The notes under the pieces: model-generated | The model's input: only the letters and a program-made list of their open reading frames with translations | What the model was told of the DNA's origin: nothing | Databases searched by the model: none | Shown: positions 3,186 to 62,083 of the stretch, piece after piece | Layout: each line of letters opens with the position of its first letter | How positions within the stretch are numbered: position 1 is the first letter of the stretch | Made by a program: the position numbers and the translations under genes | Source: a virus | Length of the DNA stretch: 64,000 nucleotides | Strand: one strand, 5' to 3' | IMG/VR virus record: IMGVR_UViG_3300044911_003339 | Location: 1-64,000 of that record

Positions 3186-3194
3186 TCGTGTAAG
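3183..3194 (+). promoter_or_regulatory. Early promoter-like motif TAATCGTGTAAG
   Basis: This is an exact copy of the recurring 12-mer; its TAA is also the stop codon of the polymerase gene. The next start, ATG 3217, is 22 bases downstream and has its own AGGAGG. The promoter role is inferred from recurrence. Confidence 0.5.
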
Positions 3195-15980: not shown

Positions 15981-16108
15981 GCGAAGAGCGAACCGTCGTG
16001 AACCACAACCACGTTGCTGATTACACGGGCTGCGGTTGCTTCGTGTTCCTCAGCGTGTGCGTGATCTGCCTGACCCTCATCGTGCTCGCGGAGGGCGGAC
16101 ACCTGTAA
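15977..16108 (+). CDS. Tiny membrane protein, 43 aa
   Basis: The GTG start overlaps the preceding stop (GTGA). The second half is one hydrophobic helix, GCFVFLSVCVICLTLIVLA, with three to four Cys on the N-terminal side. Its TAA stop is part of the next TAATCGTGTAAG motif. It may be a holin or exclusion peptide; function unknown. Confidence 0.55.
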   Translation: MSEERTVVNHNHVADYTGCGCFVFLSVCVICLTLIVLAEGGHL

Positions 16109-16117
16109 TCGTGTAAG
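16106..16117 (+). promoter_or_regulatory. Early promoter-like motif TAATCGTGTAAG
   Basis: An exact copy of the recurring motif. It uses the upstream stop codon as its first three bases. The next ATG (16126) is 8 bases downstream, too close for a normal leader and ribosome site, so a leaderless transcript is likely. Confidence 0.55.
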
Positions 16118-21514: not shown

Positions 21515-21523
21515 TCGTGTAAG
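21512..21523 (+). promoter_or_regulatory. Early promoter-like motif TAATCGTGTAAG
   Basis: An exact copy overlapping the stop of the winged-helix gene, 20 bases before ATG 21544 with TAGGAGG between. Leadered class. Confidence 0.5.
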
Positions 21524-23820: not shown

Positions 23821-23832
23821 GAATCGTGTAAG
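23821..23832 (+). promoter_or_regulatory. Early promoter-like motif GAATCGTGTAAG
   Basis: A one-base variant of the 12-mer, 15 bases after a stop and 46 bases before the Lys-rich mini-ORF, which has TAGGAGG. The ~210 bases from 23806 to 24016 hold this motif, the mini-ORF, a terminator and a second motif. Confidence 0.5.
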
Positions 23833-23996: not shown

Positions 23997-24008
23997 TAAT
24001 CGTGTAAG
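23997..24008 (+). promoter_or_regulatory. Early promoter-like motif TAATCGTGTAAG
   Basis: An exact copy directly after the hairpin and 8 bases before ATG 24017 of the AAA+ gene. Leaderless class. Confidence 0.55.
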
Positions 24009-26895: not shown

Positions 26896-27209
26896 CGCCG
26901 CTCTCGCCGCTGTTCTACGTCGAGTGCGCCGCGTGCGGTGCAGAGGAGCCTGCCGTGCGCCGCGAGGGCCGCATCGAGCCTCCCGACGGCTGGGCCATCC
27001 TCACGCCCGAGTGCTGCGGAGCGAAGCGCGATCTCTTCGCGTGCGAGACGCACGGCTGCCCGACGAAGACCGTCGAGCGGATGTTCGACGGGCACCCGGA
27101 GACCACGCGCCTCTTCGTGATCATCCTCGGGAAGCCTCGCGACGACGGCACGCCCTCGCGATTCTTCTACGTGCGTGAGGGCAAGCGAGTCCGCCTCGTG
27201 CCCGCGTAA
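26892..27209 (+). CDS. Cys-rich putative zinc protein, 105 aa
   Basis: GTG 26892 overlaps the upstream stop. Several Cys pairs (CAAC, ECCGAK, CETHGC) suggest one or two zinc sites, followed by a short alpha/beta tail. Its TAA belongs to the next TAATCGTGTAAG. Confidence 0.6.
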   Translation: MTPLSPLFYVECAACGAEEPAVRREGRIEPPDGWAILTPECCGAKRDLFACETHGCPTKTVERMFDGHPETTRLFVIILGKPRDDGTPSRFFYVREGKRVRLVPA

Positions 27210-27218
27210 TCGTGTAAG
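27207..27218 (+). promoter_or_regulatory. Early promoter-like motif TAATCGTGTAAG
   Basis: An exact copy sharing the upstream stop codon, 7 bases before ATG 27226. It is the last copy seen in the window, and none occurs in the late block. Confidence 0.55.
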
Positions 27219-43660: not shown

Positions 43661-45460
43661 ATGGGCCTGTTCGACAAGTTCAAGGATGGATTCGAAGCGC
43701 TCGCGAAGGCGCTCGGCGAATCCGAGGAAGACGGCGAGGACATCCCCTTCGACAAGATGCGGGATGCCCTCGTGCGTTCAGGTCTCGCGGAACCGACGGA
43801 GGAGAAGCCGCGCGCGCTCTTCCACGATCCCTACGCGGTCACGGACTGGGGAGGCTGGCGAGAGCGACCGTCGTCGATGACGTACGAGACGCTTCGCATG
43901 ATGAGCGTGAAGAACACGGTCATCGCCTCCATCATCCAGATCCGGTGTAATCAGGTCGCGCAGTTCGGTCGGCCTCAGCAGGGCCCGTACGACAAGGGCT
44001 ACCGGATCATCCCGCGCGACAGGCGGGACAAGAAGAAGGTGCTCACGCCCGCGGAGAAGAAGCAGGCCGCGGAGATCGAGCGGATGCTGGAGACGACGGG
44101 CTTCCTCCTGCCCGGCGAGAAGCCCGCGGATCGCGACAGCTTCCGCACCTTCTTGCGGAAGGCCACGCGCGACATCCTCACCTACGACCAGTGGGCGTTC
44201 GAGAAGATTCGCGACCGCAAGGGTCGCGTCTCGCGCTTCATCGCGCTCCCCTCAGAGAGCATCCGGCCGGCGAGCGCGGACATCGAGCACATGGACGTGA
44301 AGTCCCTGCGCGAGCGCGTCTCGCACGTCCAGGTCTACGAGGACACGCCGATCGCCGAGTTCAGCCCCGAGGACATCGCGTGGTGCGTGATGAATCCTCG
44401 CTCCGACCTGCGCGCGAACGGCTTCGGCTTCTCGTACATCGAGATGCTCGTCTCGCTCGTGACCGCGTGGCTCTACGGGTTCGAGTACAACCAGCGATTC
44501 TTCATGCAGGGCAGCGCCATCAAGGGCATCCTGAACGTGAAGGGCGCGATTCCCGATCGTCAGCTTCGTGCGTTCCGACGCATGTGGTATTCGATGGTCT
44601 CGGGCGTGAGCAACGCGTGGAAGACGCCGATCCTCAACAGCGAGGATCTCCAGTGGGTCCCGCTCCACGTGAACAACCGCGAGATGGAGTACGGGCAGTG
44701 GATGGACTGGCTCACGAAGCTCACGTGCGCCGTGTTCGGAATCGATCCCGTCGAGATCAACTTCATCTTCGGCAACAGCGGGCAGTCGTCGTCGCTGAAC
44801 CAGTCGCGCCCGAACGCGGCGGAGGTCCAGGAGTCGAAGGACAAGGGCCTCGTGCCTCTCATGGACCACATCGCCGACAACCTGAACATGCACATCATCT
44901 GGGAACTCGCACCAGATTTCGAGTTCGCCTTCACGGGCTTCGACGCGCAGGCCGAGGAGAAGGAGCAGGAGGGTCGCATCAAGGCGGTCACGAACTACAA
45001 GATGATCGACGAGGTGCGCGCGCTCTACGAAGACGATCCGCTGCCGAACGGCATGGGCCAACTGATTCTGAATCCGACCTACATGCAGTGGGCGATGCAG
45101 AAGGAGCAGGCCGCGATGGGCGGACCTCCCGGTGGAGGTGAGGGCGACATGGGCATGGGCGATCCCGACGCGCTGCCCTCCACAGCACCGGGCAACGACG
45201 AGGAAGACCTCGCAGGGCCTCCCCAGAAGGGCCCGCCCAAGCCCGGCCAGCCCCCGAAGGGTCCGCAGGGCCCGCAACCCCCGAAGGGCGCGCAGAAGCC
45301 CCCAGGGAAGCCCTTCGGCTCCCCCGGTGAGGAAGCGCTCCAGGCGTCAGCCTTCGTCGAGCGCACGGCGCGTGGCATCCTCCGCAAGTCCCGCGTACAC
45401 ACGCGCACCGAAGGCGGGCGGGAAATCATCGACATCGAACTGCCGGAGGATCCGACATGA
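43661..45460 (+). CDS. Portal protein (HK97-like family)
   Basis: A 599 aa protein with typical portal features: an N-terminal helical stretch, the wing/stem core (DILTYDQWAFEKIRDRKG, FSPEDIAWCVMNPRSDL, SYIEMLVSLVTAWLYG), the FGIDPVEINF segment and the SSSLNQSRPNA loop. The C-terminus adds a ~100-residue Pro/Gly/Lys-rich tail. It forms the dodecameric ring for DNA entry and exit and seats the terminase. ATG 43661 follows AGAGGAGACGC. Confidence 0.93.
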   Translation: MGLFDKFKDGFEALAKALGESEEDGEDIPFDKMRDALVRSGLAEPTEEKPRALFHDPYAVTDWGGWRERPSSMTYETLRMMSVKNTVIASIIQIRCNQVAQFGRPQQGPYDKGYRIIPRDRRDKKKVLTPAEKKQAAEIERMLETTGFLLPGEKPADRDSFRTFLRKATRDILTYDQWAFEKIRDRKGRVSRFIALPSESIRPASADIEHMDVKSLRERVSHVQVYEDTPIAEFSPEDIAWCVMNPRSDLRANGFGFSYIEMLVSLVTAWLYGFEYNQRFFMQGSAIKGILNVKGAIPDRQLRAFRRMWYSMVSGVSNAWKTPILNSEDLQWVPLHVNNREMEYGQWMDWLTKLTCAVFGIDPVEINFIFGNSGQSSSLNQSRPNAAEVQESKDKGLVPLMDHIADNLNMHIIWELAPDFEFAFTGFDAQAEEKEQEGRIKAVTNYKMIDEVRALYEDDPLPNGMGQLILNPTYMQWAMQKEQAAMGGPPGGGEGDMGMGDPDALPSTAPGNDEEDLAGPPQKGPPKPGQPPKGPQGPQPPKGAQKPPGKPFGSPGEEALQASAFVERTARGILRKSRVHTRTEGGREIIDIELPEDPT

Positions 45461-46231: not shown

Positions 46232-48046
46232 GTGGCTCGCGTACGCATCGAAGCCCCCGAGGGACTGGACCGACTGACGCTCGCGCAGATCGTCGTCGGT
46301 CCTCACCTGCTTCTGAAGTCCCAGCACGTCCGGCATGCCGGCGAGCGGACGTTCTCGCGCTACGTCGCGCTCCAGGAGTTGAACGAGCACGTCGTGAAGT
46401 CGTTCGAGGAGACGCTGAAGCAAGCGCTGAAGCGCGCGGACGATTACATGCAGCGCACGGTGCTGCTCGCCGACGTGGGGCTGCGGAAGGCGGACGAGCA
46501 CCTCCCCGCGTTCCCTCCGCTCTTCACGCCCGAGCAGATGGAGGCGGTGCGCCGCATCCTCACCGATCACGTGCACGGCTTCATCGCGACGACCGTGGAT
46601 CCGAATCTTCTCTCGCAGCACGAGGTCGCGCGCCTGATCGCCGAGGGAGTGATTCCCGCGTCGATGAGCTACGTGTTCCAGGCCGAGCCGGGGCAGGAGG
46701 CTCCTCTCGCCGAGGACTGGATCGGAGCGGCCTACACCTACGGCGCGATGCTCGGCTCGATGCGAGAGGGCGATGACGCCGCCTACGTGAAGTCGCTGTC
46801 GTGGCCGACGTTCGCCAAGAAGCAGAAGGCACAGCCGCTCGTGCTGACCCCGCACGAGCAGGCCGCGCTCGACGTGGCGAAGCACAGCGCGGGCATCCAC
46901 TGCCGCGGGCTCGGGAACGAAGTCGCCGACGACTTCTCGACGATCGCCATCGACACGGACCGCGCGCTGCGGAAGCGATTCGAGCACGAGATCCAGACCT
47001 CGACCGAGGCGAACATCGCGCGCCGCGACGCGTGGCGGAAGCTCGCGAGCGACCTCGGGCACAAGACCGGGGACTGGGCGCGAGGCTTCGGGCGCATCGC
47101 CGCGACCGAGAAGCAGCGCGCGTTCCAGGAGGGATTCTCCACGACGCTGAAGAAGCGCGAGAAGAAGCGCCCCGAGGACGTGCGCGTCGCCAAGCTCCCG
47201 GCACCCGACGCGTGCCCCGACTGCGTGCGCCTGCACCTCACCGCAGGTCCCGGTTCCAAGCCGCGCATCTTCTCGCTCGCAGACCTGGAGGCCAACGGCT
47301 CGAACATCGGCGTGAAGCGCGCCTCGTGGAAGGCCGTCGTCGGGCCGGTGCATCCGTGGTGCGGGTGCGAACTCGTGCACGTGCCCGACGGCTGGGATTT
47401 CGACGACGAGAACAAGCTCATGCCCACGAAGCTCGAACGCAGCGCACGCCTGGAGGCGGACCTGCGGAAGAGCGCGGACAAGCAGCGACACCTGACCTAC
47501 AGGGAATCGGTTCCCGAGAAGGGCATCGTCGTTCGCGTCGGCGACCCGCTCACGCGAGCGGAGATCGACAAGGTGATCGCGCGCACGCCCGAAGTGCTGT
47601 TCGACCACAAGGTCGGCGTCACGCTCATCACGACCGATCTGCCGACGGTGCAGAACGTGCTCGACCCGCACGATCTCGCCTACTGGACGGGCAACGAGAT
47701 TCGCCTCTCGCAGACTCTCGCGCCCGAGCGCGTGAACCTCGTGCTCATGCACGAGTTCGGTCACGCGCTGAACGTGTTCCTCTACCAGAAGTTCGACGAG
47801 AACACGGACCGCGTGCGCGCGTGGCACGACGCCCTGTTCGCCATCGCGAAGGTCGAGGGCTTCGTCTCCGATTACGCGACCCGCGAGCCGATCGAGAACG
47901 CAGCCGAGGTGACCCGGCTCTACCTCTACGACCGGCCGAAGCTCATGCGGGAGTTCCCGCGGCAGTTCGCCTTCTGCCAGAAGGACTACCGCGACATCCT
48001 CCCGCCCTGGAAGTGGAGGAACGATGGCGATTCTAAAGATCGCTGA
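46232..48046 (+). CDS. MuF-type minor head protein fused to HExxH peptidase, 604 aa
   Basis: Residues ~190-390 are the MuF/minor-head domain, ending with the Cys-containing CPDCVRLHL (C328) and VGPVHPWCGCELV segments seen in this family. After a linker, residues ~430-600 carry a zinc-metallopeptidase motif LMHEFGHALN (H507-E508-H511). MuF proteins are packaged near the portal, and in many phages and prophages their C-termini carry toxin or enzyme domains. The peptidase may act on the envelope or on host proteins after delivery. GTG 46232. Confidence 0.82.
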   Translation: MARVRIEAPEGLDRLTLAQIVVGPHLLLKSQHVRHAGERTFSRYVALQELNEHVVKSFEETLKQALKRADDYMQRTVLLADVGLRKADEHLPAFPPLFTPEQMEAVRRILTDHVHGFIATTVDPNLLSQHEVARLIAEGVIPASMSYVFQAEPGQEAPLAEDWIGAAYTYGAMLGSMREGDDAAYVKSLSWPTFAKKQKAQPLVLTPHEQAALDVAKHSAGIHCRGLGNEVADDFSTIAIDTDRALRKRFEHEIQTSTEANIARRDAWRKLASDLGHKTGDWARGFGRIAATEKQRAFQEGFSTTLKKREKKRPEDVRVAKLPAPDACPDCVRLHLTAGPGSKPRIFSLADLEANGSNIGVKRASWKAVVGPVHPWCGCELVHVPDGWDFDDENKLMPTKLERSARLEADLRKSADKQRHLTYRESVPEKGIVVRVGDPLTRAEIDKVIARTPEVLFDHKVGVTLITTDLPTVQNVLDPHDLAYWTGNEIRLSQTLAPERVNLVLMHEFGHALNVFLYQKFDENTDRVRAWHDALFAIAKVEGFVSDYATREPIENAAEVTRLYLYDRPKLMREFPRQFAFCQKDYRDILPPWKWRNDGDSKDR

Positions 48047-51000
48047 TCTCGTGAAGAGCGGAGGTCCGTACATCGGGCCGAAGGGCGGTGTGTGGGCCGA
48101 CCCGCAGCACACGGTGCCGTGGAAATCGGATCATGAGGACACCACCTCTCACTTGTTCCACTCCACGCCCGCGTACGCGATGAGCCGGATCAAGCGGGAA
48201 GGTCTTGCTCCGCGCAAGGGCGCAGGTCTCTTCCAGCACGGCGGCTACGATCTGCACTCGCAAGGCAAGGTGTTCCTCTCGAACAACCTCTACGCGGCGA
48301 AGCAGTGGCACAGCAAGGTCGAGGCTCAACTCGAACACCACCACGATAATCCGAAGCACCACGTTGCAGTCATGCTTCGTGTGAAGCCTCGGGAGACGCA
48401 TCTCGACGATGTTGGAGACCGCGATGTGAGCGGCTCTCGCTTCGTGCGCGACGTTGTGCCTGCAACCGACATCGAGTTCTTCCACGAAGGTACGAAGCGC
48501 TGGAAGCCGGTGAAGGATTACAAGCACGGCACGCACGGTATCCCGGACGACCACTACGAAGCTCACGCGCCGCGCGACGAAGAGGCAGACGCCGCCGAGA
48601 AGGCCGCAGCGAAAGAGGCACGACGCGCGAAGCGCGAAGCCGAGGAGCAGGCGACTCGCGCGCGGCTCGCGGCGCTCCAGGAGGAGCGCGCGAAGCGCGA
48701 GGCTGCGGAAGCGCAGGTTCACTTCAGGGATTCTGACGAAGGCAAGGCAATCCTCACGCGCTGGAAGGGCCTCTCCCCCGAAGAGCGTCAGGCGAAGGCG
48801 AAGCGCATCCTCGACGCGCCCCGCCCTTTCCCCGGCGCTCCCTCGATGCTGTCGCTCGGGCAGCGAGGCGAGGTGTGGCGCGAAGCTCTCGGAGTCGATG
48901 AGAAAGGGAATCTCGTGAAGTCGCGATTCATCATCAAGGCAGGCCCCTCAGGTGGGGGTTGGATGCCGATCCCCGGAGGCCACCACGGAGGGCTTCGGCG
49001 ACGACACGGCGCGGGCTGGGAGTACTGGTACCCGAACGGAGCCCCGCACTTCGTGCTCCGCGAGCAGAAGCACCCCGAGGAGCAGCACGGGCACGAGCAG
49101 ATCGACCCGGAGCCCTCGCACTGGGCCCTCGTCACGCCCGGCCCCGGCCTGCCCCCGGTCGGGTGGACCGCGGGCGGCGTGAACCCGCACGACACGAAGA
49201 CCCCCGTGAAGGAGGCCGGTGTCTCGGGGAAGCTCTACCGCATCAAGAATCCGCACATCCGAGAAGGCTGGGCGCTGCTCACCGACGTGCGCTCGGGCGA
49301 GGACCACATGGTCCAGCACGACCGCGTGATGCCCGTTCGGTGGCTTTCGCCCGAAGAGAGGGCTCTCCAGGGCTCTACAGAGCCTCAGGAGCCGTTTTCG
49401 ACCTGGAAGCCAGGGGTGGGTCCCTCCAAGCGCCCGAGCGGCGGAGGGGCGTCTGAGGGCAAGCGGATGCCCTCCTTCCCCGACTCCCGAGCGCTGCCCG
49501 GAACCGAGACGCACAAGCTGGAGAACGGCGCGTACGTCTGGCGCAAGGTCACGCGGTACGAAGCCGACGAGGACGGCACCACTCGCAAGGTCGAGCGGCT
49601 CGCGCCTGGAATCCCCGACTCCGACAAGATCGCGCTCATCGCAGAGTACGAGGGCCTCGTCGCCAAGACGGCGAAGCGCGTGCGCAGCGCGTTCGGGCTC
49701 AGCGCCCGCCTCTCCACCGGCCCCGGTCAGCGCACGGTGGACGACACGCTCGTCGAGCTTCGGCAGGCCGGCGTGGAGGGTCTGCTCCACGCCATCGACA
49801 GCTATCGCCCCGTGGGCCCGTTTGCAGCGCACGCCCAGCAGTACGTTCGCGATTACGCGCGTCTCCACGCCGCACGGGAGTTCGCGGGAGGCATCGCGAT
49901 CCCGCGGCGGCATGCGCGCCTGCTCTCGTCCTACATCGCGGCCCGCGCAGAGGCCGCGCGCGTGAGCGGAAGCCACGACCCGAGCCCCGAGGTGGTCGCG
50001 GAGTTCTGGAAGCCGAAGAAGCGGGACCTGCACTCGGGCCTCTCGCCCGAGGAAGGCGGAGGAACGATTCCTCTCGCTGGCTACACGCTGAAGCGCAAGA
50101 CGACCTCGACCGATCCCGAGACGGGCAAGAAGAAGACGACCGTCGAGGGCGAGGACGTGGTGCAGCAGCCCGGCCGCCTGGAGTGGGCGCAGCAGTTCCA
50201 CGCGTTCCTCGTCGGGCAGGGAGGCATGGCGGACATCGACGAGCAGGCCGCGCTGTTCCCCGGCCTCGGCGTCGGCACGGGGCTCGGCGCGGACGAGCGC
50301 ATCGCCGTGCGCGAGGCGATGATGCGCGCGCTCCCTCCCGACGGGACGATCGTCACGGTCCAGGCGGGCCCGCAGGCCCAGTTCCGCGGCGAGACCTGGA
50401 AGGCGATCGACCTCGCCCTCGGGCTCTCGTCGGGCGATCCGCTGCCTCTCGACGAAGTGGTCCGTCGCGTGCCCGTCGAGGGATCGCGCGGAGGTGAGTG
50501 GAAGCGTCTCGGAAGCTCGCGAGCGCGCGCCGCGATCGAGGCGCTCATCCGCGACGGCCTGAACACGGTCGCGCGTCACCTGCGAGGCGACGAGGACCGA
50601 GCAGCGTCGCTCGCGCAGGCCCTCGTGACGAAGCTCGTGCCGACCGAGGCTCCGAAGGAGCGGCTCCCCACGATGCGAGAGCGAATCCGCGCTGCGATGG
50701 CCCGCATCACCCCGGCCGAGGTGCAGCGCTGGCGCGAGGAGACGCGAGCGCGCTACCCCGAGCGGCCCGACATCGGCCGACGGATGTCTCGTGTCACCGA
50801 TTCCGAAGCGAAGCGCCGCATCGTCGAGGAGCGCATCGCCGCAGCCCCGCTCACGCCCGAGATGCACGAGGCGATGCTCCGCACGATGACGGCGATTCGC
50901 CAGGGCGTCTCGGCCTCGGGCCAGAACGTCTTCGGCGTCGTGGACCCGAAGGGGTCGAAGAAGAGCCTGCGCGTGCACTCGCTCTCCAAGGCCGGCGACC

Positions 51001-51137
51001 ACGGCGCGTCCGATTCGGCTATGGTCGGGGAGTGGCTCCGGTTCCCGGAGCTTTCGCGACTTCGCTGGGCGAGCGAAGATCCGCTCGTGCACGCTCCGAC
51101 GATCGCTCGCGCACGGTTCGATTCCATCATCGGGTGA
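48024..51137 (+). CDS. Virion-region polyprotein: ADP-ribosyltransferase-like plus sigma-70-like domains, 1037 aa
   Basis: ATG 48024 overlaps the MuF gene by 23 bases. Residues 13-33 have GPYIGPKGGVWADP, a motif found in phage polyproteins. Residues ~40-175 resemble an ADP-ribosyltransferase/KptA-type fold (LFHSTPAYAMSRIKREGL, then KVFLSNNLYAAKQW). A coiled coil (190-240) and a variant of the shared motif (HHGGLRRRHGAGWEYWYP, ~320) follow. Residues ~530-640 align with sigma-70 regions 2-3: LIAEYEGLVAKTAKRVRSAF, LRQAGVEGLLHAIDSYRP, FAAHAQQYVRDYARLHAARE, GIAIPRRHARLL. A region-4-like helical part lies at ~750-860. Roles are inferred. Confidence 0.75.
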   Translation: MAILKIADLVKSGGPYIGPKGGVWADPQHTVPWKSDHEDTTSHLFHSTPAYAMSRIKREGLAPRKGAGLFQHGGYDLHSQGKVFLSNNLYAAKQWHSKVEAQLEHHHDNPKHHVAVMLRVKPRETHLDDVGDRDVSGSRFVRDVVPATDIEFFHEGTKRWKPVKDYKHGTHGIPDDHYEAHAPRDEEADAAEKAAAKEARRAKREAEEQATRARLAALQEERAKREAAEAQVHFRDSDEGKAILTRWKGLSPEERQAKAKRILDAPRPFPGAPSMLSLGQRGEVWREALGVDEKGNLVKSRFIIKAGPSGGGWMPIPGGHHGGLRRRHGAGWEYWYPNGAPHFVLREQKHPEEQHGHEQIDPEPSHWALVTPGPGLPPVGWTAGGVNPHDTKTPVKEAGVSGKLYRIKNPHIREGWALLTDVRSGEDHMVQHDRVMPVRWLSPEERALQGSTEPQEPFSTWKPGVGPSKRPSGGGASEGKRMPSFPDSRALPGTETHKLENGAYVWRKVTRYEADEDGTTRKVERLAPGIPDSDKIALIAEYEGLVAKTAKRVRSAFGLSARLSTGPGQRTVDDTLVELRQAGVEGLLHAIDSYRPVGPFAAHAQQYVRDYARLHAAREFAGGIAIPRRHARLLSSYIAARAEAARVSGSHDPSPEVVAEFWKPKKRDLHSGLSPEEGGGTIPLAGYTLKRKTTSTDPETGKKKTTVEGEDVVQQPGRLEWAQQFHAFLVGQGGMADIDEQAALFPGLGVGTGLGADERIAVREAMMRALPPDGTIVTVQAGPQAQFRGETWKAIDLALGLSSGDPLPLDEVVRRVPVEGSRGGEWKRLGSSRARAAIEALIRDGLNTVARHLRGDEDRAASLAQALVTKLVPTEAPKERLPTMRERIRAAMARITPAEVQRWREETRARYPERPDIGRRMSRVTDSEAKRRIVEERIAAAPLTPEMHEAMLRTMTAIRQGVSASGQNVFGVVDPKGSKKSLRVHSLSKAGDHGASDSAMVGEWLRFPELSRLRWASEDPLVHAPTIARARFDSIIG

Positions 51138-51145
51138 GGTTCTCC

Positions 51146-51490
51146 ATGAAGAGGTTCTCCATCGACCCCGCCACGCTGCCGACCACATGGCGGGTCGGGC
51201 GGCGTGTCGGCAATAGCGGGCTGGAGCACGCCTTCGATCTCCGCCGTCGGGATGACGGCGGAATCTCCATCTCGAACGTCGAGCACCCGCTCACGGAGAC
51301 CGAGCGCACCATGCTGCTCTCGCACTTCGGCAAGGCGCGCGTCGTGACGATCGGAGGCGAGGCCGACAACGGCGCGCTCGTGACGACGATGCAGCGCCAC
51401 GAGCCGGGGGAGATCGAGAACTTCGTGGAGGCGGTCTACTCGCTGCCCTCACCCTTCATGGTGATGCCGAACGCTCGGAGGGAGACATGA
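51146..51490 (+). CDS. Hypothetical protein, 114 aa
   Basis: ATG 51146, nine bases after the previous stop. Mixed alpha/beta with no motif. It is wedged between two giant virion-region genes and overlaps the next by ATGA, so it may be a chaperone or partner of one. No family recognised. Confidence 0.6.
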   Translation: MKRFSIDPATLPTTWRVGRRVGNSGLEHAFDLRRRDDGGISISNVEHPLTETERTMLLSHFGKARVVTIGGEADNGALVTTMQRHEPGEIENFVEAVYSLPSPFMVMPNARRET

Positions 51491-54400
51491 GCCGGTTCGT
51501 GATTCCTGCGCTCCGCGCCGCACTGCCGGACGCCCTGGCGAAGTCGTTCCAGCGAGGCCCGCTCGCGCAGCACAAGTACCTGAAGCGAGAGCCCTACTTC
51601 GTCGGGGGCAAGCTGCGCTGGAGGTACTGGTACGCGAGCGACGAGCTTCGCAAGCAGGGCATGGTCGAGCACGACCCCGCGGGCGAGCACGAGCACCACC
51701 TGCTCGCGAACATCGCGGACATCTACGAGCACTTCAAGTCCGTGATCCGCTCGACTGCTGCGACCCCGACGACGGCGATCGAGGGAATCTTCCAGGCCGC
51801 GGTCGATGACCCGAAGGCGCAGCGCGTGCCACAGGTCGCGATGTCTCCGGCGTTCCAGGCGCAGCACGTTCAGCCGTTCATCGACGCAGAGGCGAAGGGA
51901 GCACCTCCCGAGGCGAGCCCGATCGTGCGCGTGCACGACGCGCTGGAGATGGTGCCCGACTACCTCCTGAAGCTCGTGATGGGCGGGACGAAGAACACGA
52001 AGCACCCCGGCTACAAGGGGCTCGGCCCGTACCCCGGTCTCTCCGCGCTCGTGATGAATCGCCAGGAGGACGAGGGAGCGGATTACGCGAACACCGCAGG
52101 TTGGGCGCATCCGAAGACGGGCGAGCTTCACCTGCTTGGCGGCGGCTCGGGCAAGCACGGCAGCGATTCGAGCTACTCCTTCCTCGACGGCGGCGACCCT
52201 GCCACGGCTCCCACGCCGACGGACTTCAACGACGCGAAGGTGCATCTCGAAAAGGTCGTCTGGCACGAGCTTGGGCACCACGTGCACTTCACGCTGGAGA
52301 CCGAGCAGCCGGACGTGATGGATTCGTGGAGGGACCTCTCGACGGGTCCGGGTCCGAAGCCGACGGCCTACGCGCACACGGCATGGTGGGAGGACTTCGC
52401 AGAATCCTTCTCGGGCTGCTTCGCGCTCCCGAAGGTGATGGCGATGCGCTGCCCCGAGCGATACGACTGGATGCGACAGCACGTCCTGAAGTCGCTGCCC
52501 GAGAGGTCCGCGCTCCTGAAGATGTCGGACGAGGAACTCGCGTGGTGGAACAAGAAGAAGACCACGCCGCCCGGCAAGCTGCTGATGCACCTGAAGTCGA
52601 ACGCGCCCGCGCGTCGCTTCGGTGCCTACTACAGCGACAAGGACCAGTTCTTCACGGTCGGCAAGGGAGGGCGCACGGTCTACCTGCGCTTCGGTCCGTC
52701 CGAGCCTGATCAGGAGGACGGCTGGACGCAGGTCCCCTCGACCATCGACCCGGAGACCGGGCTGCCGGTCTACGACGCCGCCTACGGTCCGCGCTTCAAG
52801 GTGCAGGGCAACCTGAAGGAGATGTACGACGAGCGCGGGAATCCGCTCGACGACTTCCAGGCGTTCCTCTACCTCGGACAAGACGACCCCGAGGTGCAGA
52901 AGTTCGTCGCCGACACGATGGAGAAGTACGTCGCGACGTTGCCTCCGAACTCGCCGCAGCCGACGGAGTACGACGCGGTGCAGTGGCTCGCCGCGAAGGG
53001 CGGCGACGAGGCGAAGGCTCTGGAGACGCGTCTGCTCTCGTACAAGATGTACACGTCGCTCGGCTACAAGCGGGAGTCGGAGAAGATTTCCGCGAAGGAA
53101 GCCCACACGACGGAGAAGGAGCGCAAGCGAGTCGAGAAGGAGCGCGCGAAGGGCGGCACGGGCTACCTCGATCGCCACGACTGGGTTCCGGTCGAGATTC
53201 CTCGCTCGGAGTTCGTTCAGAAGTCGGGCACCTTCAAGTTCGACAACGTGCGACCCGCGGAGTACCAGCCGTGGCAGGCCCGCGAGTGGGATCCCGTCAC
53301 GAAGACCTCGCGTGTGAAGACCGTCTACGACCCTGCGGCCGGCAAGGTGGTGCCCGTGCGCACGGCGACGGTCTACGAGCAGGAGAACCCCGACGGCACG
53401 ACGTTCCGTGTGACGGTCGCGGAGGGCGAGCCCTTCTCGATCGGACAGACCATCCTCGCGCCGGTCAGCGTGAAGCTGCCCGACGGTCGCATCTCGCAGG
53501 ACTGGCAGCCCTACAAGCTGTCCGTCGAAGACGGCGAGATGACCGTCACGAACCTCGCGAAGAAGTTCCGCGTCGATCCTGAGGCGCTCCTTCGTCAGAA
53601 TCACCGCTACATGCGCGGGCAGATCACGGACCCGATGCTCGCCGCGCTCCTCAACCCGAGCGGCGAGGTGATTCGCGATCAGTTCGATCTCATGCGCCTC
53701 ATGAAGCTCGCGGCCGAGCAGCCCACGCCGCCGACCGCGTGGGTCAGCGTCCGGGGCAAGACGGGCTCGATCGCTCACTTCAAGGTGAGCTTCGACGGCT
53801 CGGGCCCGCCGCGCGTCGAGGGTCGTCAGTGGGCCGCGAAGCTCGGGAAGGACCCGACCGAACCCATCCGCCTCGATCAGATTCTCGGGAAGGACGACGA
53901 ACTCATCGGCGTCGAGACCGTGCGCGAGCGGAAGGCGAAGGAGGTCAAGATCAAGCCGGGCGGCCTGGTGTGGGTCACCGTCAAGAATCACCTCGGCGAC
54001 GCGAAGCGCGTGATGGCGCGCTACATCGAGAAGAAGTCGTTCGAGGAGAAGGGCAAGAAGAAGAACGCCCACGTCGTCCAGGTGCTCCCCGGTCAGGGCA
54101 CGGGTCTGCCGAAGGACCGCGTGATCGTCACGCGCGTGAACAAGAGCGACGAGAGCCAGATCCCCGGCAAGCCGGAGATTCGTCGGCGCTTCGTCGAGCC
54201 GATGCAGAAGGACGTGCTGCTCTACGCCGACGAGGTGCGGGTCGGCTCGGGCGACCGAGACACGAGCGGCGTGATCAAGATCCTCCCGCCGAAGAACGGC
54301 TCGGTCACGAAGGCGCAACTCGCTGCGATTCCTGGCGTGCGCATCATCGGACTGGAGAAGGCACGGAACAAGAAGGGCGGAGCAGTCACGGAGGAGCTTC

Positions 54401-57400
54401 CCGAGGGCGTCGAGCTTGCCATCTCGCCCCGTGACCTCCCGGCCTTCCGGGAGTACCTCGGCGGCTTCGTGATGGACGAGCGCGTCTCGTCCATGATGGA
54501 CGAGCAGGCTGCCATCATCCGAGAGCGCGCGCTCCAGGTGACCGGAGAGGACTGGCCTCCCGCAGACCAGATCGTCGATGCGGACGGCAACGTGAATCCC
54601 AACGGAGTGCTGCGCGGCATGGTGACGGGCGCGATGGGCATGCAGCCCGGCGCGCATCGCATCGAGGCGCTTCAGCGCGTCGCGATGAACAACGGTCGCC
54701 TCATCGCTGCGCACTTCATGGGCACGGGCAAGACCGCGTTCTCGATCGCAGCCGCGCAGATGATGCGGAACCTCGAATCCCGCGAGCAGCCCGGCAAGCC
54801 GCACCCGAATCAGGTGAAGAAGAAGGTGCTCGCGCTCGTGCCGCTCAACACCGCGAACAACTACGCCGACGAGGTGGAGGTGTTCACCGGAAGGCCCGCA
54901 ACGATCATCGGCTCGGGCTCGCTCGCGGGCAGCGTGCGGATGTTCCGCATGCCGAAGGACCAGGGCCAGAAGAAGAACGAGACGCGCGAGGCGTTCATCG
55001 CGCGCTCGCTCGCCGCATGGAAGGCGGCGGTCAAGACCGACCCGACGCTGTGGAACCCGTGGGCAGACGATTCCCAGATGTGCGTCTGCCCCTACGAGTA
55101 CTTCCGCGACAACGAGGAGTTGATGCGGGCCACGGAGATGTTCGACGGGCTCGTCGTGGACGAGGCGCACAACATCGCACGTGAGAACGAACTCTCACGT
55201 GCGGTCGAGCGCTGGAATCCGAACATGAACATGTTCCTCATGCTCACCGGCACGCCCGTGACGAACACGCTCGACGTGCTCCCGCGTATGGCGAGCCTCG
55301 TGAGCGCGGGCAAGGTGAACCTCGGCACGAAGCAGGAGTTCACGGAGCGCTACCTCGTCGGCTCGGCTGTCGCGAAGGGCGAGGGCGCGAAGAATCCTCC
55401 GAAGACGGACCTCAACCCGCAGCGTGCCGGCGAACTGGCGGCGATCATGCGTCCGCTCATGCACATCGCGACGACGCAGGACGTGAAGGGCAAGACGATG
55501 CCCGCGGTGCTGCTCGACGAGAACAAGCCCGCGCACATGATCGGTCAGCAGGCGCGCATGTACCGACTCTCGATGGCGAAGTTCACGCCCGAGGAGAAGG
55601 CGGCGATCATCGAGAGCGGTGCGGTCGGCACCGACGAGTCGTACGCGCTCGATGACGAGGGTCGCCGCAAGATCGGTGTCGCTCGCTCGATCGCGAACTG
55701 CCTCGCCTACAAGGCACCCGACCAGCGTGAGAATCTCACGTACGAGTCGAAGAGCACCGAGGAGAAGAAGGGCAAGGTCATCGAGAAGACCGTCACCCGC
55801 GTCTTCTCGCTGCCCACGCACGCGATGATGACGACGAAGCGCCCCGAGGGCTGGGGCGGGAAGTGGCCGACGTTCTCGGAGGTCGAGAAGGGAATCGTCG
55901 AGCCGGGCTACTACAACGTGCTCTCGGAGTACTACGAGCGCCTCTTCGGCGTGACGTACGACTCCGTGGAGGGCAAGCCCATCGCGAAGGAGATCCTGGA
56001 CGGCGTGAAGCGCGGCGACTACGTGACGCCGAGCGGCGCGCCGTGGGGTACGGTCGTGAATCCCGATTACGGCCCAGAGGGCATGATCTGTCGCGGCACG
56101 CTCGACCCGGTGACGGGCAAGATCGAGCCGCTGCGGAAGGAGATCGTCGAGAACGGGCAGAAGCGCGTCGTCGAGGTCAAGCCGGGCACGCGCTTCATCC
56201 GCGATCCGAACTCCAAGGCGGCGGGCCTCTTCTACCACGAGGATGACTGGAACTTCACCGGCCGCTTCATCGACTCGGGCGAGGGAGGCGGCGGCGAGGG
56301 TGGAGGCGAGGACGATCCGTCCGACCCGAAGCCCGCGTCTGCCGGCAAGCAGGCCCCGAAGGACCCCTCGCTCTCCATCCAGCGTTCGACGAAGCGCCGG
56401 AAGGAGCGAGAGATGTTCGACCTCGCGGTCACGGCGGGCAACGCGAAGAGCGACGAACTGGAGCAGTACATCCACAACGCGCTTCGCGACGACAACCTCG
56501 GGCCCGATCAGCAGTTCATCCTCTTCGGGAATCGCATCGGCTCTTCCTTCCGCACGATGGAGAGCAAGCTCCGCACGATGGGATTCCAGGACGTGAACGA
56601 AGCGCTCGGGCACCCCGAGTGGAGCACGGCCGAGGACAAGGCGATGATGCCTCGGAAGTTCTTCGTGACGTACGCGGGCAAGGGAGCAACGCTCGGCGAC
56701 CGCGACATCAACTCGGAAATCTTCCGACAGAAGCTCGACCAGTTCGGCCACAAGACCGGGCAGTCGATGTTCGTCTTCCGCACGCTCAACGGCGGCACGA
56801 AGAAGCCACCCAAGGTCGGCGAGATGCGCGAGGGCTGGAGCCGTGGCCAGCGGAAGCGCATCGCCGACGCTCTCGCGGAGCCCACGCGCAAGACGGCCGA
56901 GGGCAAGCCTGCGGGCCTGGAGGTGCCGATGCGCGTGACGAGCGTCGAGGTCGATGGTCGCATCGAGCAGCGGTACCTCTACGAGTCGGACATGAAGCCG
57001 AAGGATCGCGCAGAGTTCCTCCGGCTGGAGAAGGAGCGCCGCGGCGCGGACAAGGCGCGCAAGCAGGCGATCGACGGCGAGATGCGCGCGCTCGCCGACC
57101 GCTACTGGAGCGACCGGATTCCTCTGTCCGATCACTACCAGTACGTGCTGAACAACACGCAGATCATGGTGGCGACCGACGCCGCGAACGTCGGCCTCAA
57201 CTGGCCTGCTCCCAAGCTCGTCATGTACGACTCGCTCTTCTCGCCGATGGACGAGTGGCAGCGCATGACGCGTGCGGCCCGCATGCTCGACGCAGCGGTC
57301 ACCGGACCCGCGAAGAAGTACGTCGAGAAGATCGACGCGAAGCTCTCCGAGATGGAGAAGCAGACCGGGCTGAAGGAGTACGGACCAGAATCTTCCCTTC

Positions 57401-58122
57401 AGGCGGTGCAGGACGCGATCGAGTCGCTCCCCGAGGACGAGCGCGCCGAGCTTCTGAACCTGGAGGGAGGAGGCCCCGATCAGATCGTCGAGGCCATCTT
57501 CAGCCGTCGCGCCATGGACAAGATCGCGAAGCTCCGCCCCGAGGTCGGCGCGCATCTCCGGCAGGCCGGCGCTGCGCCTGATCCCGATCGCCCCGAGATC
57601 CGCATCCGTCCATCGGCCATCCAGGAATCCGACGTGACGAACGAGATCATCCGCAAGCACCTCACGCCCTTCGAGCAGCGCGTGCTCCGAGGACGCATGT
57701 ACCTCGTGGACGTGAAGCGGCTCACGACCTCGTGCGACGTGCCCGAGATGAAGTCGATTCGCATCGAAGACCCGATGACGGGCAAGAAGACCACGGTTCA
57801 GGTCCCGACCGGCAAGTGGTCGGTCGAGGCTCCGACGCAGGCCGAGCGAAGCCAACTCACGCAGGGCCGCATGAAGATGGTGCCCTACGAGAAGGCGATG
57901 AAGGCGTTCCAGAACGCGCAGCCGGTGAAGACCGACTACGACTTCCTCGTGACGCCTCGCGGGAGCGTGCGTAGCTTCTCGATCATGCCTGAGGAGATCG
58001 AGCGCGAGAAGGCGAGTCGCGCGAAGCGCGAGGTCGCGAAGCCGAAGCCCACGAAGACGAAGAAGTCGGAGAGCTACAGCCGATTCTTCATTCCAGCGCG
58101 AACCGCGCGCGGGGAGGCGTGA
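51487..58122 (+). CDS. Giant HExxH peptidase-DEAH helicase protein, 2211 aa
   Basis: The N-terminus carries the shared motif QHKYLKREPYFVGG to RYWY (~28). Residues ~180-340 have a metallopeptidase site WHELGHHVHF (H260-E261-H264) with a downstream EDFAES as likely third ligand. Two large middle regions of unknown fold follow. Residues ~1050-1940 are a superfamily 2 helicase/SNF2-like motor: Walker A MGTGKT (to T1083), DEAH (1225-1228), LTGTPV, TDAANVGLNW and QRMTRAAR. Residues 1950-2211 are helical and basic. It resembles in plan P1 DarB (a packaged antirestriction helicase), though there is no sequence proof. Confidence 0.88.
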   Translation: MSRFVIPALRAALPDALAKSFQRGPLAQHKYLKREPYFVGGKLRWRYWYASDELRKQGMVEHDPAGEHEHHLLANIADIYEHFKSVIRSTAATPTTAIEGIFQAAVDDPKAQRVPQVAMSPAFQAQHVQPFIDAEAKGAPPEASPIVRVHDALEMVPDYLLKLVMGGTKNTKHPGYKGLGPYPGLSALVMNRQEDEGADYANTAGWAHPKTGELHLLGGGSGKHGSDSSYSFLDGGDPATAPTPTDFNDAKVHLEKVVWHELGHHVHFTLETEQPDVMDSWRDLSTGPGPKPTAYAHTAWWEDFAESFSGCFALPKVMAMRCPERYDWMRQHVLKSLPERSALLKMSDEELAWWNKKKTTPPGKLLMHLKSNAPARRFGAYYSDKDQFFTVGKGGRTVYLRFGPSEPDQEDGWTQVPSTIDPETGLPVYDAAYGPRFKVQGNLKEMYDERGNPLDDFQAFLYLGQDDPEVQKFVADTMEKYVATLPPNSPQPTEYDAVQWLAAKGGDEAKALETRLLSYKMYTSLGYKRESEKISAKEAHTTEKERKRVEKERAKGGTGYLDRHDWVPVEIPRSEFVQKSGTFKFDNVRPAEYQPWQAREWDPVTKTSRVKTVYDPAAGKVVPVRTATVYEQENPDGTTFRVTVAEGEPFSIGQTILAPVSVKLPDGRISQDWQPYKLSVEDGEMTVTNLAKKFRVDPEALLRQNHRYMRGQITDPMLAALLNPSGEVIRDQFDLMRLMKLAAEQPTPPTAWVSVRGKTGSIAHFKVSFDGSGPPRVEGRQWAAKLGKDPTEPIRLDQILGKDDELIGVETVRERKAKEVKIKPGGLVWVTVKNHLGDAKRVMARYIEKKSFEEKGKKKNAHVVQVLPGQGTGLPKDRVIVTRVNKSDESQIPGKPEIRRRFVEPMQKDVLLYADEVRVGSGDRDTSGVIKILPPKNGSVTKAQLAAIPGVRIIGLEKARNKKGGAVTEELPEGVELAISPRDLPAFREYLGGFVMDERVSSMMDEQAAIIRERALQVTGEDWPPADQIVDADGNVNPNGVLRGMVTGAMGMQPGAHRIEALQRVAMNNGRLIAAHFMGTGKTAFSIAAAQMMRNLESREQPGKPHPNQVKKKVLALVPLNTANNYADEVEVFTGRPATIIGSGSLAGSVRMFRMPKDQGQKKNETREAFIARSLAAWKAAVKTDPTLWNPWADDSQMCVCPYEYFRDNEELMRATEMFDGLVVDEAHNIARENELSRAVERWNPNMNMFLMLTGTPVTNTLDVLPRMASLVSAGKVNLGTKQEFTERYLVGSAVAKGEGAKNPPKTDLNPQRAGELAAIMRPLMHIATTQDVKGKTMPAVLLDENKPAHMIGQQARMYRLSMAKFTPEEKAAIIESGAVGTDESYALDDEGRRKIGVARSIANCLAYKAPDQRENLTYESKSTEEKKGKVIEKTVTRVFSLPTHAMMTTKRPEGWGGKWPTFSEVEKGIVEPGYYNVLSEYYERLFGVTYDSVEGKPIAKEILDGVKRGDYVTPSGAPWGTVVNPDYGPEGMICRGTLDPVTGKIEPLRKEIVENGQKRVVEVKPGTRFIRDPNSKAAGLFYHEDDWNFTGRFIDSGEGGGGEGGGEDDPSDPKPASAGKQAPKDPSLSIQRSTKRRKEREMFDLAVTAGNAKSDELEQYIHNALRDDNLGPDQQFILFGNRIGSSFRTMESKLRTMGFQDVNEALGHPEWSTAEDKAMMPRKFFVTYAGKGATLGDRDINSEIFRQKLDQFGHKTGQSMFVFRTLNGGTKKPPKVGEMREGWSRGQRKRIADALAEPTRKTAEGKPAGLEVPMRVTSVEVDGRIEQRYLYESDMKPKDRAEFLRLEKERRGADKARKQAIDGEMRALADRYWSDRIPLSDHYQYVLNNTQIMVATDAANVGLNWPAPKLVMYDSLFSPMDEWQRMTRAARMLDAAVTGPAKKYVEKIDAKLSEMEKQTGLKEYGPESSLQAVQDAIESLPEDERAELLNLEGGGPDQIVEAIFSRRAMDKIAKLRPEVGAHLRQAGAAPDPDRPEIRIRPSAIQESDVTNEIIRKHLTPFEQRVLRGRMYLVDVKRLTTSCDVPEMKSIRIEDPMTGKKTTVQVPTGKWSVEAPTQAERSQLTQGRMKMVPYEKAMKAFQNAQPVKTDYDFLVTPRGSVRSFSIMPEEIEREKASRAKREVAKPKPTKTKKSESYSRFFIPARTARGEA

Positions 58123-58656: not shown

Positions 58657-58717
58657 CGCTGCTGCCGGATTCGTGACACACCATGGACCGTGGCCTGCTC
58701 CCGTGTGGAGCACGAGA

Positions 58718-58753
58718 GGCGACCGAAGGAGAAATCCATCGGTCGCCTTTTTC
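58718..58753 (+). terminator. Hairpin-T5 terminator with ribosome site in loop
   Basis: GGCGACCGA (58718-58726) pairs with TCGGTCGCC (58739-58747), followed by TTTTT. The loop contains AAGGAG and, 6 bases later, ATC (58738) in frame with the protease gene. It may be a plain terminator or a structure that affects protease translation. Confidence 0.75.
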
Positions 58754-58782
58754 GTTCTCGGGTCGCAGATCGCGCGGACGCG

Positions 58783-59538
58783 ATGAAGACCTCTCCCCAG
58801 CGCAAGTTCAGCTTCGACTTCGATGTCGAGGTGTTCGAGAAGGCGAGCCCCGAAGGAACGGAGCGCCGCATCGGCGGAATCGTGTCCACCGATCACCTCG
58901 ATCGTCAGAGCGAGGTGCTGCTTCAGGAGGGCCTGGACTTCTCGCCCTTCCTGAAGGGCGGGTGGTTCAACGACAACCACGAGTCCACGACGGACAGCGT
59001 GATCGGCTACCCGACGGCGGCCGAGCTTCGTCACCTGCCGGACGGCAGGAAGGGCTGGTACGTCGAGGGCTACCTCCTGAAGACCGACCGCGCGAATCGG
59101 ATCTGGGACCTCGCGACCGAGCTTCAGCGCTCGGGCTCGGGGCGCAAGCTCGGATTCTCGGTCGAGGGCTCGATCGCCGAGCGCGACCCGGACGACCCGA
59201 AGAAGGTCCGCAAGGCCGTCGTGCGCGAGGTCGCGATCACGAAGTGCCCGGTCAACACGAACACCGCGCTGCACGTGCTGGCGAAGTCGCTGGCCGTTGG
59301 TGCGGGTGGGCCGCCCTCAGGGCCGACGGGTGACGCGAGCGTGCTCGCGCCCGAGGCTCTGGAGGGCGTGAGTCCCGCGCGCCCGAGTCCGAAGGACCCG
59401 AAGAAGCGCCGCAAGGTCAAGCAGCGGATGAACAAGTCCGAGGCTGTGGATTTCTTGCTGTCGGTTCGGCCTGGGATGTCTCGGGCGCTCGCAGAGCGCG
59501 TGGTCGAGTACGCGATTCGGTGGCACCCGGCCGCCTGA
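58783..59538 (+). CDS. Prohead maturation protease
   Basis: The start is ATG 58783, 251 aa; an AUC in frame at 58738 with a better ribosome site is noted. The sequence follows the prohead-protease (S78/U35-like) pattern: RIGGIVSTDHLDRQSEVL, the catalytic-His segment WFNDNHEST (H ~66), and the Ser segment LGFSVEGS (S ~125). The C-terminal tail (Lys/Arg-rich) ends in a short helix and is probably removed on maturation. It should cleave scaffold, capsid and perhaps the giant cargo proteins. Confidence 0.88.
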   Translation: MKTSPQRKFSFDFDVEVFEKASPEGTERRIGGIVSTDHLDRQSEVLLQEGLDFSPFLKGGWFNDNHESTTDSVIGYPTAAELRHLPDGRKGWYVEGYLLKTDRANRIWDLATELQRSGSGRKLGFSVEGSIAERDPDDPKKVRKAVVREVAITKCPVNTNTALHVLAKSLAVGAGGPPSGPTGDASVLAPEALEGVSPARPSPKDPKKRRKVKQRMNKSEAVDFLLSVRPGMSRALAERVVEYAIRWHPAA

Positions 59539-60658: not shown

Positions 60659-62083
60659 ATGAACACCACCCCGTTCGTCAGCGCACGCGACTACGGCGGC
60701 TTCGGGTCGAGCAGCCCCGACGAGATCGCCGCACTCAGGAAGGCCCTCTACGCGGGCCAGGACGTGAACGCCCCCGCGGTCGTTCCCGGCGAGGGCTTCC
60801 CGCTCCGCACCGAATCTCTGGAGGCGAGCTTGAAGGTGCTCACCTACGAGATGGACGAGATCAAGCTGTTCAAGACGATCAGCAAGATTCCCGCGACGAA
60901 CACCGTCGAGGAGTTCAACCGTCTCCTGAGCTACGGCCGCGGCGGCAGCCGACGCTTCAACCTCGGCTGGATGACCGAGGGCGATCTTCCCGAGGAGGAG
61001 GACTCGACCTACGAGCGCATCACGATGCAGATCAAGTTCCTCGGCGTGGTCGGCCGCGTGACCCACGTCGCGAACACGATCCGCGCCGCGCACGGCAACG
61101 TGATCGCGATGGAGACGCAGAACAAGACGATGGAACTGCTGAAGCAGTTGGAGAACGCGCTGTTCTTCGGCGATTCCTCGCTCATCCCCGAGCAGATCGA
61201 CGGCCTCGAACGCCTCATCACCGCGGGTGCTCCGAACAACGTCATCGACCTCCGCGGTGGACCGATCACCGAGGAGATCATGAACGACTCGCTGCTCCAG
61301 ATCCGCGACAACTTCGGCATGGCGACCGACTGCTACCTCGGCACGGGCCCGTTCGCGGACCTCGCGAAGCAGGTCTACGACCGTCAGCGCTTCGGCGTCG
61401 CTCCGGCTCCGGGCGTGCTCGGCGCGCAGGTGACGGCGTTCCAGGGCCAGCACGGCAAGGTGTCGATGCACGACCACGTGTTCATCACGGAGGGTCAGAC
61501 GGCGCTCGCTGCGGGCCTCGGCTCGACCACGAAGCGCGCGGCGGCTCCGACCATCACCGTCGCTCCCGCGGCCGGTGCGGCGGCGGGCTCGCTCTTCACC
61601 GCGGCCGACGCGGGCACCTACATCTACCGCGTGGTGGCGGGCAATCGCTTCGGCCTCAGCGTCCCCGTGAACTCGGCGGGCGTGGCGGTCGTCGCGGGCG
61701 ACGGCGTGACCTTCACGGTCGCGGACGGCGGCCCCCCGAGCGCGACCTTCTACGAAATCTACCGCACGACCCCCGGAGGCTCGGCGGCAGATGCTCGTCT
61801 CATGACGCGCGTCGCGCGCACGGGTGCCACGCAGGTCATCACCGACCTCAACGCGGACATCCCCGGCACGTCGAAGGGCTTCATGCTCATGCAGAACGCG
61901 CGCTCGTTCTCGTGGGCGCAGCTTCTCCCGATGACGCGCATCCCGCTCGCCGCGATCGACACGTCGATCCGCTGGGCGCAGGTGCTCTACGGCGGCGTGA
62001 AGATGTACACGCCCGCGAAGAACATCGTGTTCAAGAACATCGGTCGCCTGCCCGGCTCGCTCCCGTCGTCGGTCGTCCCCTGA
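60659..62083 (+). CDS. Major capsid protein with Ig/Fn3-like insertion
   Basis: A 474 aa protein. The first ~280 residues match HK97-fold capsid proteins (GEGFPLRTESLEASLKVLTY, FLGVVGRVTHVANTIRAA, LENALFFGDSSLIPEQIDGL). Residues ~285-405 are a Thr/Gly/Val-rich immunoglobulin/Fn3-like domain (YRVVAGNRFGLSVPVNSAG, TFYEIYRTTPGG) that would project from the capsid. The fold resumes at ALPMTRIPLA-like end sequences (RIPLAAIDTSIRWAQVLYGG). It forms the shell around the packaged genome. Confidence 0.88.
   Translation: MNTTPFVSARDYGGFGSSSPDEIAALRKALYAGQDVNAPAVVPGEGFPLRTESLEASLKVLTYEMDEIKLFKTISKIPATNTVEEFNRLLSYGRGGSRRFNLGWMTEGDLPEEEDSTYERITMQIKFLGVVGRVTHVANTIRAAHGNVIAMETQNKTMELLKQLENALFFGDSSLIPEQIDGLERLITAGAPNNVIDLRGGPITEEIMNDSLLQIRDNFGMATDCYLGTGPFADLAKQVYDRQRFGVAPAPGVLGAQVTAFQGQHGKVSMHDHVFITEGQTALAAGLGSTTKRAAAPTITVAPAAGAAAGSLFTAADAGTYIYRVVAGNRFGLSVPVNSAGVAVVAGDGVTFTVADGGPPSATFYEIYRTTPGGSAADARLMTRVARTGATQVITDLNADIPGTSKGFMLMQNARSFSWAQLLPMTRIPLAAIDTSIRWAQVLYGGVKMYTPAKNIVFKNIGRLPGSLPSSVVP

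Follow-up and report, generated by a model that had tools for sequence, protein, structure and literature searches.

A sigma-70-like domain within a large polyvalent-type protein encoded among phage head genes

Some phages are known to package an RNA polymerase, as N4 does, or an enzyme that modifies the polymerase, as with T4 Alt. The giant virion RNA polymerase of N4 is ejected and starts early transcription (PMC5512222, PMC12633501), and it is the transcription module named among polyvalent proteins in the portion of PMC5512222 used here. Polyvalent proteins, as that portion describes them, are large, mix unrelated domains, lie beside virion genes and are predicted to be injected; their InPases are considered likely to be packaged. 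T4 Alt is a head-packaged ADP-ribosyltransferase that acts on host RNA polymerase (PMC5512222). The T4 late sigma gp55, which is paired with gp33, has homology to sigma region 2 only, lacks a canonical region 4 and serves late promoters of 8 bp that have no -35 element (PMC2988020). Phage sigma factors appear solely as stand-alone proteins in the part of PMC7824862 on which we draw.

Here we analyzed a 64,000-base stretch of viral DNA (hereafter the window), which belongs to a virus record of 105,161 bases (IMG/VR IMGVR_UViG_3300044911_003339) and encodes a 1037-aa protein, P0001. Like the polyvalent proteins, P0001 and its homolog at locus L061 of another virus are large, combine unrelated domains and are encoded beside virion genes. 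The likeness extends to an InPase (L061), an ADP-ribosyltransferase (ART)-like domain, and metallopeptidase and SNF2 neighbors. Unlike the proteins of PMC5512222, in whose main text the word "sigma" occurs 0 times, P0001 carries a sigma-like domain; the word is likewise absent from the main text of PMC9503650. N4 delivers a whole polymerase, whereas P0001 is proposed to supply no more than a specificity factor to the host enzyme. The proposed role also resembles that of T4 Alt, which has no sigma domain in the passages of PMC5512222 that cover it, while the ART assignment of P0001 is weak. As proposed here for P0001, gp55 pairs sigma region 2 with a -35-less promoter; gp55, however, is described in PMC2988020 as a small separate late-gene protein, whereas the P0001 domain is one part of a giant whose gene sits in the head block. 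The cellular comparison is with sigma-70 group 3 (FliA/WhiG, SigB/SigF/SigG) and RpoS, which have regions 2.1 to 3.1 in the same order as P0001, but the viral domain sits mid-protein in chains of 1000-2000 aa and its region 4 is not confidently detectable.

Our searches of the open-access literature turned up no phage sigma domain fused within a virion-region or polyvalent protein, and a sigma domain in a polyvalent protein is what is new here. If P0001 is a packaged sigma, it would represent a third, cheaper route to take over transcription at time zero, the polyvalent-protein repertoire would gain a transcription-initiation domain, and an ejected protein would be linked, concretely and testably, to a phage-specific promoter. 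If the domain is instead a core-binding decoy, it would be a bacterial RNA polymerase inhibitor not previously recognized in the literature searched.

Gene neighborhood and protein layout

The genes that frame P0001 are as follows.

31139-32872: terminase large subunit
43661..45460, + strand: portal protein (phrog_12, 9.9e-51)
46232..48046, + strand: P0002, upstream neighbor of 604 aa, minor-head-like with an HExxH metallopeptidase (both weak)
48024..51137, + strand: P0001, multidomain protein (open reading frame; homologs with matching gene order at L061 and L091)
51487..58122, + strand: P0003, downstream neighbor, 2211-aa giant with an SNF2/DNA-helicase core (SNF2-rel_dom 4.8e-11; phrog_62 1.2e-27)
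58690..59538, + strand: head maturation protease (phrog_1028, 4.8e-50, frame 58657-59535)
60659..62083, + strand: major head protein (phrog_752, 4.3e-87)

An earlier note on this DNA had placed the gene among head genes. The surrounding portal, head protease and major head protein genes bear this out, as does a gene order shared with L061 and L091. The L061 virus carries P0002, P0001 and P0003 homologs in that order, and a 41-kb contig of this virus is collinear onward through the structural genes; L091 has a portal gene followed by the same three homologs. In all three viruses, the P0001-type gene therefore stands between a minor-head-like/metallopeptidase gene and an SNF2-helicase giant. In G006, which contains no P0001 homolog, different genes come after the P0002 homolog. 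P0002 is conserved in L003, L005, L006 and L008, and its own matches are faint (TIGR04549 4.9e-5 and Peptidase_Mx1 0.0024, both under cut-off; 0.31 and 0.46 with the phrog_4728 and phrog_115 head models).

Several further features of this region were observed. Directly upstream of the portal gene, window positions 40259-43624 encode a protein of 1121 aa that contains a Zeta-toxin-type kinase domain (5.4e-20) and also matches a minor-head-protein PHROG (9.6e-12). The upstream neighbor in the L061 virus (L061:2-2437) has an extra C-terminal AstE/AspA-type domain (PF24827, 2.1e-6), which is absent from the Pfam matches of the window's P0002. By eye, one SNF2-helicase giant (L069:686-6229) seems to be interrupted by an intein-like insert (GLGKAASVDERILTPQGW ... 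HVVTHNT).

Within P0001, whose open reading frame was confirmed in the window, the following parts were delimited.

48045..48152, + strand: module-entry motif, residues 8-43 (DLVKSGGPYIGPKGGVWADPQHTVPW...), 64% identical to the L006 motif
48129..48548, + strand: tentative ART/RNA 2'-phosphotransferase-like domain, residues 36-175 (NCBIfam PRK00819)
48936..49040, + strand: Gly/Trp-rich linker, residues 305-339 (alignment with L061)
49611..50042, + strand: sigma-70-like domain, region 2 to region 3, residues 530-673 (profiles, homologs)
49752..49787, + strand: assigned region 2.2 (VELRQAGVEGLL), residues 577-588 (alignment with sigma factors)
49818..49865, + strand: assigned regions 2.3-2.4 (PFAAHAQQYVRDYARL), residues 599-614 (alignment with sigma factors)
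49890..50006, + strand: assigned region 3.0-3.1 (GIAIPRRHARLL ... DPSPEVVAEF), residues 623-661 (sigma HMM, alignment)
50289..50588, + strand: region-4 candidate, residues 756-855 (kept in three viruses; chance-level to marginal against sigma region 4)

P0001 begins with PYIGPKGGxWADP, and nine viral loci were retrieved with this N-terminal module-entry motif. The earlier note held that P0001 shares a motif with other giants; PYIGPKGGxWADP is indeed present in large proteins of other viruses, but P0001 does not match GHKYxxRxPDGKGGWxYxY, the repeat of the other giants in the window. The latter occurs in up to six copies per protein in L008:2130-6425 and adjacent frames and apparently serves the head-region giants of this virus group as a linker or module-entry motif. 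The Gly/Trp-rich linker marks the start of a stretch conserved with L061.

The ADP-ribosyltransferase-like domain named in the earlier note survives in part. The NCBIfam RNA 2'-phosphotransferase model PRK00819 matches whole P0001 at E=0.029 and the 48024-48600 fragment at 0.0089, but neither Pfam nor a PDB sequence search returned an ART match. A PHROG of unknown function, phrog_13493, also matches this part (0.08 in P0001, 0.0024 in L061), which is 81% identical between the two proteins. The ART-like character of the N-terminal domain is thus weakly supported and is treated as provisional throughout. The L061 protein additionally contains an InPase (Pfam PF18823, 1.7e-33), a likely packaged type that supports a polyvalent context for P0001; an InPase-similar stretch was also noticed by eye in L091. 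With several disparate domains per polypeptide (InPase, sigma and ART-like in L061; sigma and ART-like in P0001), we consider P0001 very probably a polyvalent-type protein.

Sigma-70 homology in three viruses

The earlier note had described a large protein at 48024-51137 with sigma-70-like motifs. The reading frame and all four motifs were located (IALIAEYEG at residues 536-544, GIAIPRRHARLL of region 3 at residues 623-634), the motifs together spanning window positions 49629-49925. P0001 taken alone gave a modest signal. Pfam, PHROGs and PDB sequence searches with it returned no sigma match, and against NCBIfam the whole protein had SigF as the best of four matches (E=0.018, far under the curated cut-off). 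A 150-aa fragment reached 6.8e-4 with SigF and 0.041 with sigma70-ECF, both under curated cut-offs. We then used a sigma HMM from 14 fetched sigma factors, 12 of them distinct (RpoD, RpoS, RpoH and FliA of E. coli plus Streptomyces plasmid sigma factors). It scored P0001 at 21.3 bits over residues 515-673, compared with 4.8 for the best of 4000 shuffles and -3.9 for the reversed protein. When 1514 six-frame stretches from this phage and its relatives were scored, those of P0001 included, the runner-up reached 8.0 bits and was the phage's own stand-alone sigma-like gene. Region 2 alone scored 9.5 bits, exceeded by one of the 4000 shuffles (10.6), and region 3 alone was at chance level against shuffles. 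Because single regions fail the shuffle test, the signal requires the regions in order.

Searches for close relatives of whole P0001, made with its own peptides, found none in the collections of viral contigs, phages and genome contigs. The 150-aa fragment gave no tblastn match in phages and nine plasmid records, none significant: two of the nine are annotated SigB/SigF/SigG, four are IstA transposases, and the other three were not recognized as sigma. The N-terminal motif led to L061, where an open frame of 1652 aa aligns with P0001 as a homolog (508 bits for residues 5-302, 210 for 305-690 and 43 for 708-953). Its sigma part, 43% identical to that of P0001, scored 21.2 bits with the sigma HMM. 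All three NCBIfam matches (E<=10) of a 1605-aa part of L061 are sigma models (best, FliA_WhiG, 6.2e-4), and a 163-aa fragment matches PHROG 351, "RNA polymerase sigma factor", at 1e-9; Pfam Sigma70_r2 reached 0.037, under cut-off. A second frame of 1993 aa, L091, was retrieved with the ART-like part. Its sigma domain is 40% identical to that of P0001 and scored 25.6 bits, and again three of three NCBIfam matches are sigma (best 2.2e-4).

The domain is not universal among proteins that share the other modules. TIGR02937 was found in two of seven records with the entry motif, both from the L061 virus (L071 is the same virus, with 10,277 bases identical); one of the five misses, G018, is an L061-virus fragment that stops before the domain. 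The ART-like part retrieved seven loci, of which two are the L061 virus and one is L091; the L088 contig ends before the sigma place, and L089, L090 and L092 show no sigma domain.

Profile comparison with sigma factors, which the earlier note had proposed as a check, gave a clear result for regions 2-3. Profiles A4 (two sequences) and A7 (three) consist of viral sequences with no cellular sigma; matches of a further profile, A1, to the PDB were discounted as circular, as A1 includes sigma factors. A4 found nothing in genome contigs. Against the PDB (E<=10), it returned 25 rows, 20 sigma and 5 dynein light chain, with RpoS best at 4.2e-5. Searched against all PDB sequences, A7 placed sigma factors in the first 36 rows (best RpoS, 2.9e-6), the six rows under 0.001 all being RpoS; the best 60 rows comprise 49 sigma and 11 dynein light chain. 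These sigma rows are not independent, because many are near-identical RpoS, RpoD or SigA entries. By hhalign, A7 aligned to the sigma alignment with 96.9% probability and a score of 72.7, whereas none of 60 column shuffles exceeded 17.3; a two-sequence, A4-type input gave 95.0% and 57.9 (maximum 18.7 in 120 shuffles). Chance resemblance or composition bias is ruled out by the shuffles, the reversed protein, the column shuffles and the control frames. With homologs in two further viruses, we regard the sigma homology of P0001 as settled: residues 530-673 are almost certainly, as judged from sequence comparison, a sigma-70-family homolog covering regions 2-3.

Against group 3 sigma factors and RpoS, P0001 aligns from region 2.1 to 3.1 in order at about 20-27% identity. 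L579, Q581, G586, L587, A590, F600 and P627 are common to P0001, L061, RpoD, FliA and Streptomyces SigF. The region 2.2 glutamine is present in P0001 and L061 and absent in L091. At the region 2.3 position where Tyr is, we assume, the -10-reading residue, P0001 and L061 have His and L091 has Tyr; the roles of the region 2.2 and 2.3 key residues are likewise ones that we presume. An extended loop precedes region 2.2 in P0001 and L061, and L091 is without it.

The region-4-like segment that the earlier note had placed near residues 750-860 was not confirmed. Residues 756-855 are conserved across the three viruses and score at chance level against sigma region 4 for P0001 and for the two-sequence viral input. 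With A7, hhalign to region 4 alone gave E=0.017 and a probability of 2.7%, reached by none of 60 shuffles, and the score of this stretch against the full sigma profile was reached by 4 of 60. The stretch has no PDB match, and Sigma70_r4 was not found in the virus record. The TIGR02937 match of L091 extends to model position 151 of 165.

Two AlphaFold2 models of P0001 fragments, built without an alignment, had low confidence (pLDDT 43.5 and 50.9), with helices where regions 2.1, 2.2, 2.3-2.4 and 3 are expected. Foldseek returned no match at E<=0.001; among its 25 non-significant rows, rank 1 was 9a7s_A, "RPSD-RPOB" (E=2.0), and rank 5 was sigma-B (E=5.6). In VIA-align, a dioxygenase gave the best Z for the low-confidence model (6.8), and sigma chains gave 4.9, 3.5 and 2.5. 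Neither of these fold searches is counted for or against the sigma assignment.

A 12-bp repeat and the possible roles of P0001

The 12-bp repeat KAATCGKGTAAG has 11 exact sites in the record (10 forward, 1 reverse), and the reversed pattern has 0. Eight promoter-like sites fall in the window.

3183..3194, + strand: KAATCGKGTAAG, exact
10052..10063, + strand: KAATCGKGTAAG, exact
16106..16117, + strand: KAATCGKGTAAG, exact
19670..19681, + strand: KAATCGKGTAAG, exact
21512..21523, + strand: KAATCGKGTAAG, exact
23821..23832, + strand: KAATCGKGTAAG, exact
23997..24008, + strand: KAATCGKGTAAG, exact
27207..27218, + strand: KAATCGKGTAAG, exact
Beyond the window (record positions): 87763 (-), 88623 (+) and 100086 (+), exact

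The sites lie just upstream of non-structural genes, and no exact site occurs between 27,218 and 87,763 of the record. At 4 of the 11 (16104, 23995, 27205 and 87763), a start codon follows the 14-base core by 7-8 bases; two lack a clear start, and the remaining sites are followed by a ribosome-binding-like site and, 12-27 bases downstream, a start. No column is conserved in the 60 bases upstream of 14 hand-chosen KAATCGKGTAAG-type sites, three of them looser. Taken together, KAATCGKGTAAG looks like a -10-only, partly leaderless candidate promoter. G005, a contig whose portal part is identical, contains it five times; the other 14 records have 0 copies. The 41-kb L061-virus contig has no exact copy; it covers only the structural block, which has none here either.

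The record also encodes a stand-alone ECF-like sigma gene outside the window (L002:1462-2022, record position 103722 onward). Its Pfam Sigma70_r2 match (26.5 bits, over cut-off, 103761-103937) lies approximately 3.6 kb downstream of the 100086 repeat copy. The earlier note's 12-mer promoters are real as a repeat, but because of this second sigma-like gene they are not tied to P0001: either a host sigma or the stand-alone phage protein could read KAATCGKGTAAG.

The role that we favor, with about even confidence, is that of a polyvalent-type phage protein, incorporating a divergent sigma-70 domain (regions 2-3, FliA/SigF/RpoS-like), that is packaged, ejected and steers host polymerase. P0001 would be made late, packed into the head together with the neighboring giants, and enter the cell along with the DNA. 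Sigma region 2 would then dock on the host RNA polymerase core and direct it to phage promoters of the -10-only type, with the KAATCGKGTAAG element of the non-structural genes as candidate target; through its ART-like domain the protein might also alter the host, much as T4 Alt modifies RNA polymerase. By analogy with T4 gp55 and its promoters, a -10-only KAATCGKGTAAG would be a fitting target for a sigma that has region 2 and lacks a clear region 4. The parts of this proposal differ in strength. Packaging is probable. Given homology, polyvalent type and packaging, a promoter-reading early sigma falls a little short of an even prospect. The most specific version, in which a virion-delivered region-2/3 sigma, on one polypeptide with host-modifying domains, captures host core before phage expression and starts the non-structural genes at leaderless, -35-less KAATCGKGTAAG, is on the unlikely side.

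Region 2 is the core-binding part of a sigma factor, and P0001 has no convincing region 4, as would be expected if the domain were a sigma mimic that occupies host core in competition with the sigma factors of the host, acting as a transcription shut-off effector and reading no promoter. The altered region 2.3 residues of P0001 and L061 and the fusion to effector-type domains point the same way. Nevertheless, region 3 is retained collinearly, PxxH and PTPEE parts included, and region-2-only sigma factors such as T4 gp55 can read promoters (PMC2988020), and we judge such a mimic unlikely. The location of the gene within the structural block, and the precedent of gp55 with its region 2 homology and -35-less promoters (PMC2988020), would also agree with a sigma made and used within the same infection for late genes and not ejected. 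This option is quite improbable: the fused polyvalent-type domains are predicted to act post-injection, no late-promoter repeat was recognized in the structural block, and KAATCGKGTAAG has no exact site from 27.3 to 87.7 kb. Less probable again is a sigma-like helical relic that now binds DNA or protein and plays no part in transcription. It would account for the strong divergence. P0001 and L061 share 81% identity in the ART-like part and 43% in the sigma part, and constraint on the latter is therefore weaker or of another kind. However, all three viruses keep the domain open and collinear, and it is recognized as sigma independently in each.

Other sigma-like frames

Several further matches were considered and set aside. 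The PF04542 match in G008/G009 (12.2 bits) was rejected as chance, as the L019 frame looks tail-tape-type; that in G006 is an ordinary small ECF-like gene; and the 10122-10769 frame, with a weak match to the sigma region, is RuvC-like. A search for T7-type RNA polymerase gave no match, and its control also matched nowhere. On a Streptomyces fungicidicus plasmid (L043, W03:C1:55256-55678), a sigma-70 match lies inside a 1292-aa frame, unusually long for a cellular sigma. The frame of the stand-alone sigma-like gene continues into a Lys/Ala/Pro-rich tail at the end of the record. Window positions 1-135 and the end of L002 contain similar Lys/Ala/Pro-coding repeats; with similar repeats at both of its ends, the record may therefore join end to end.
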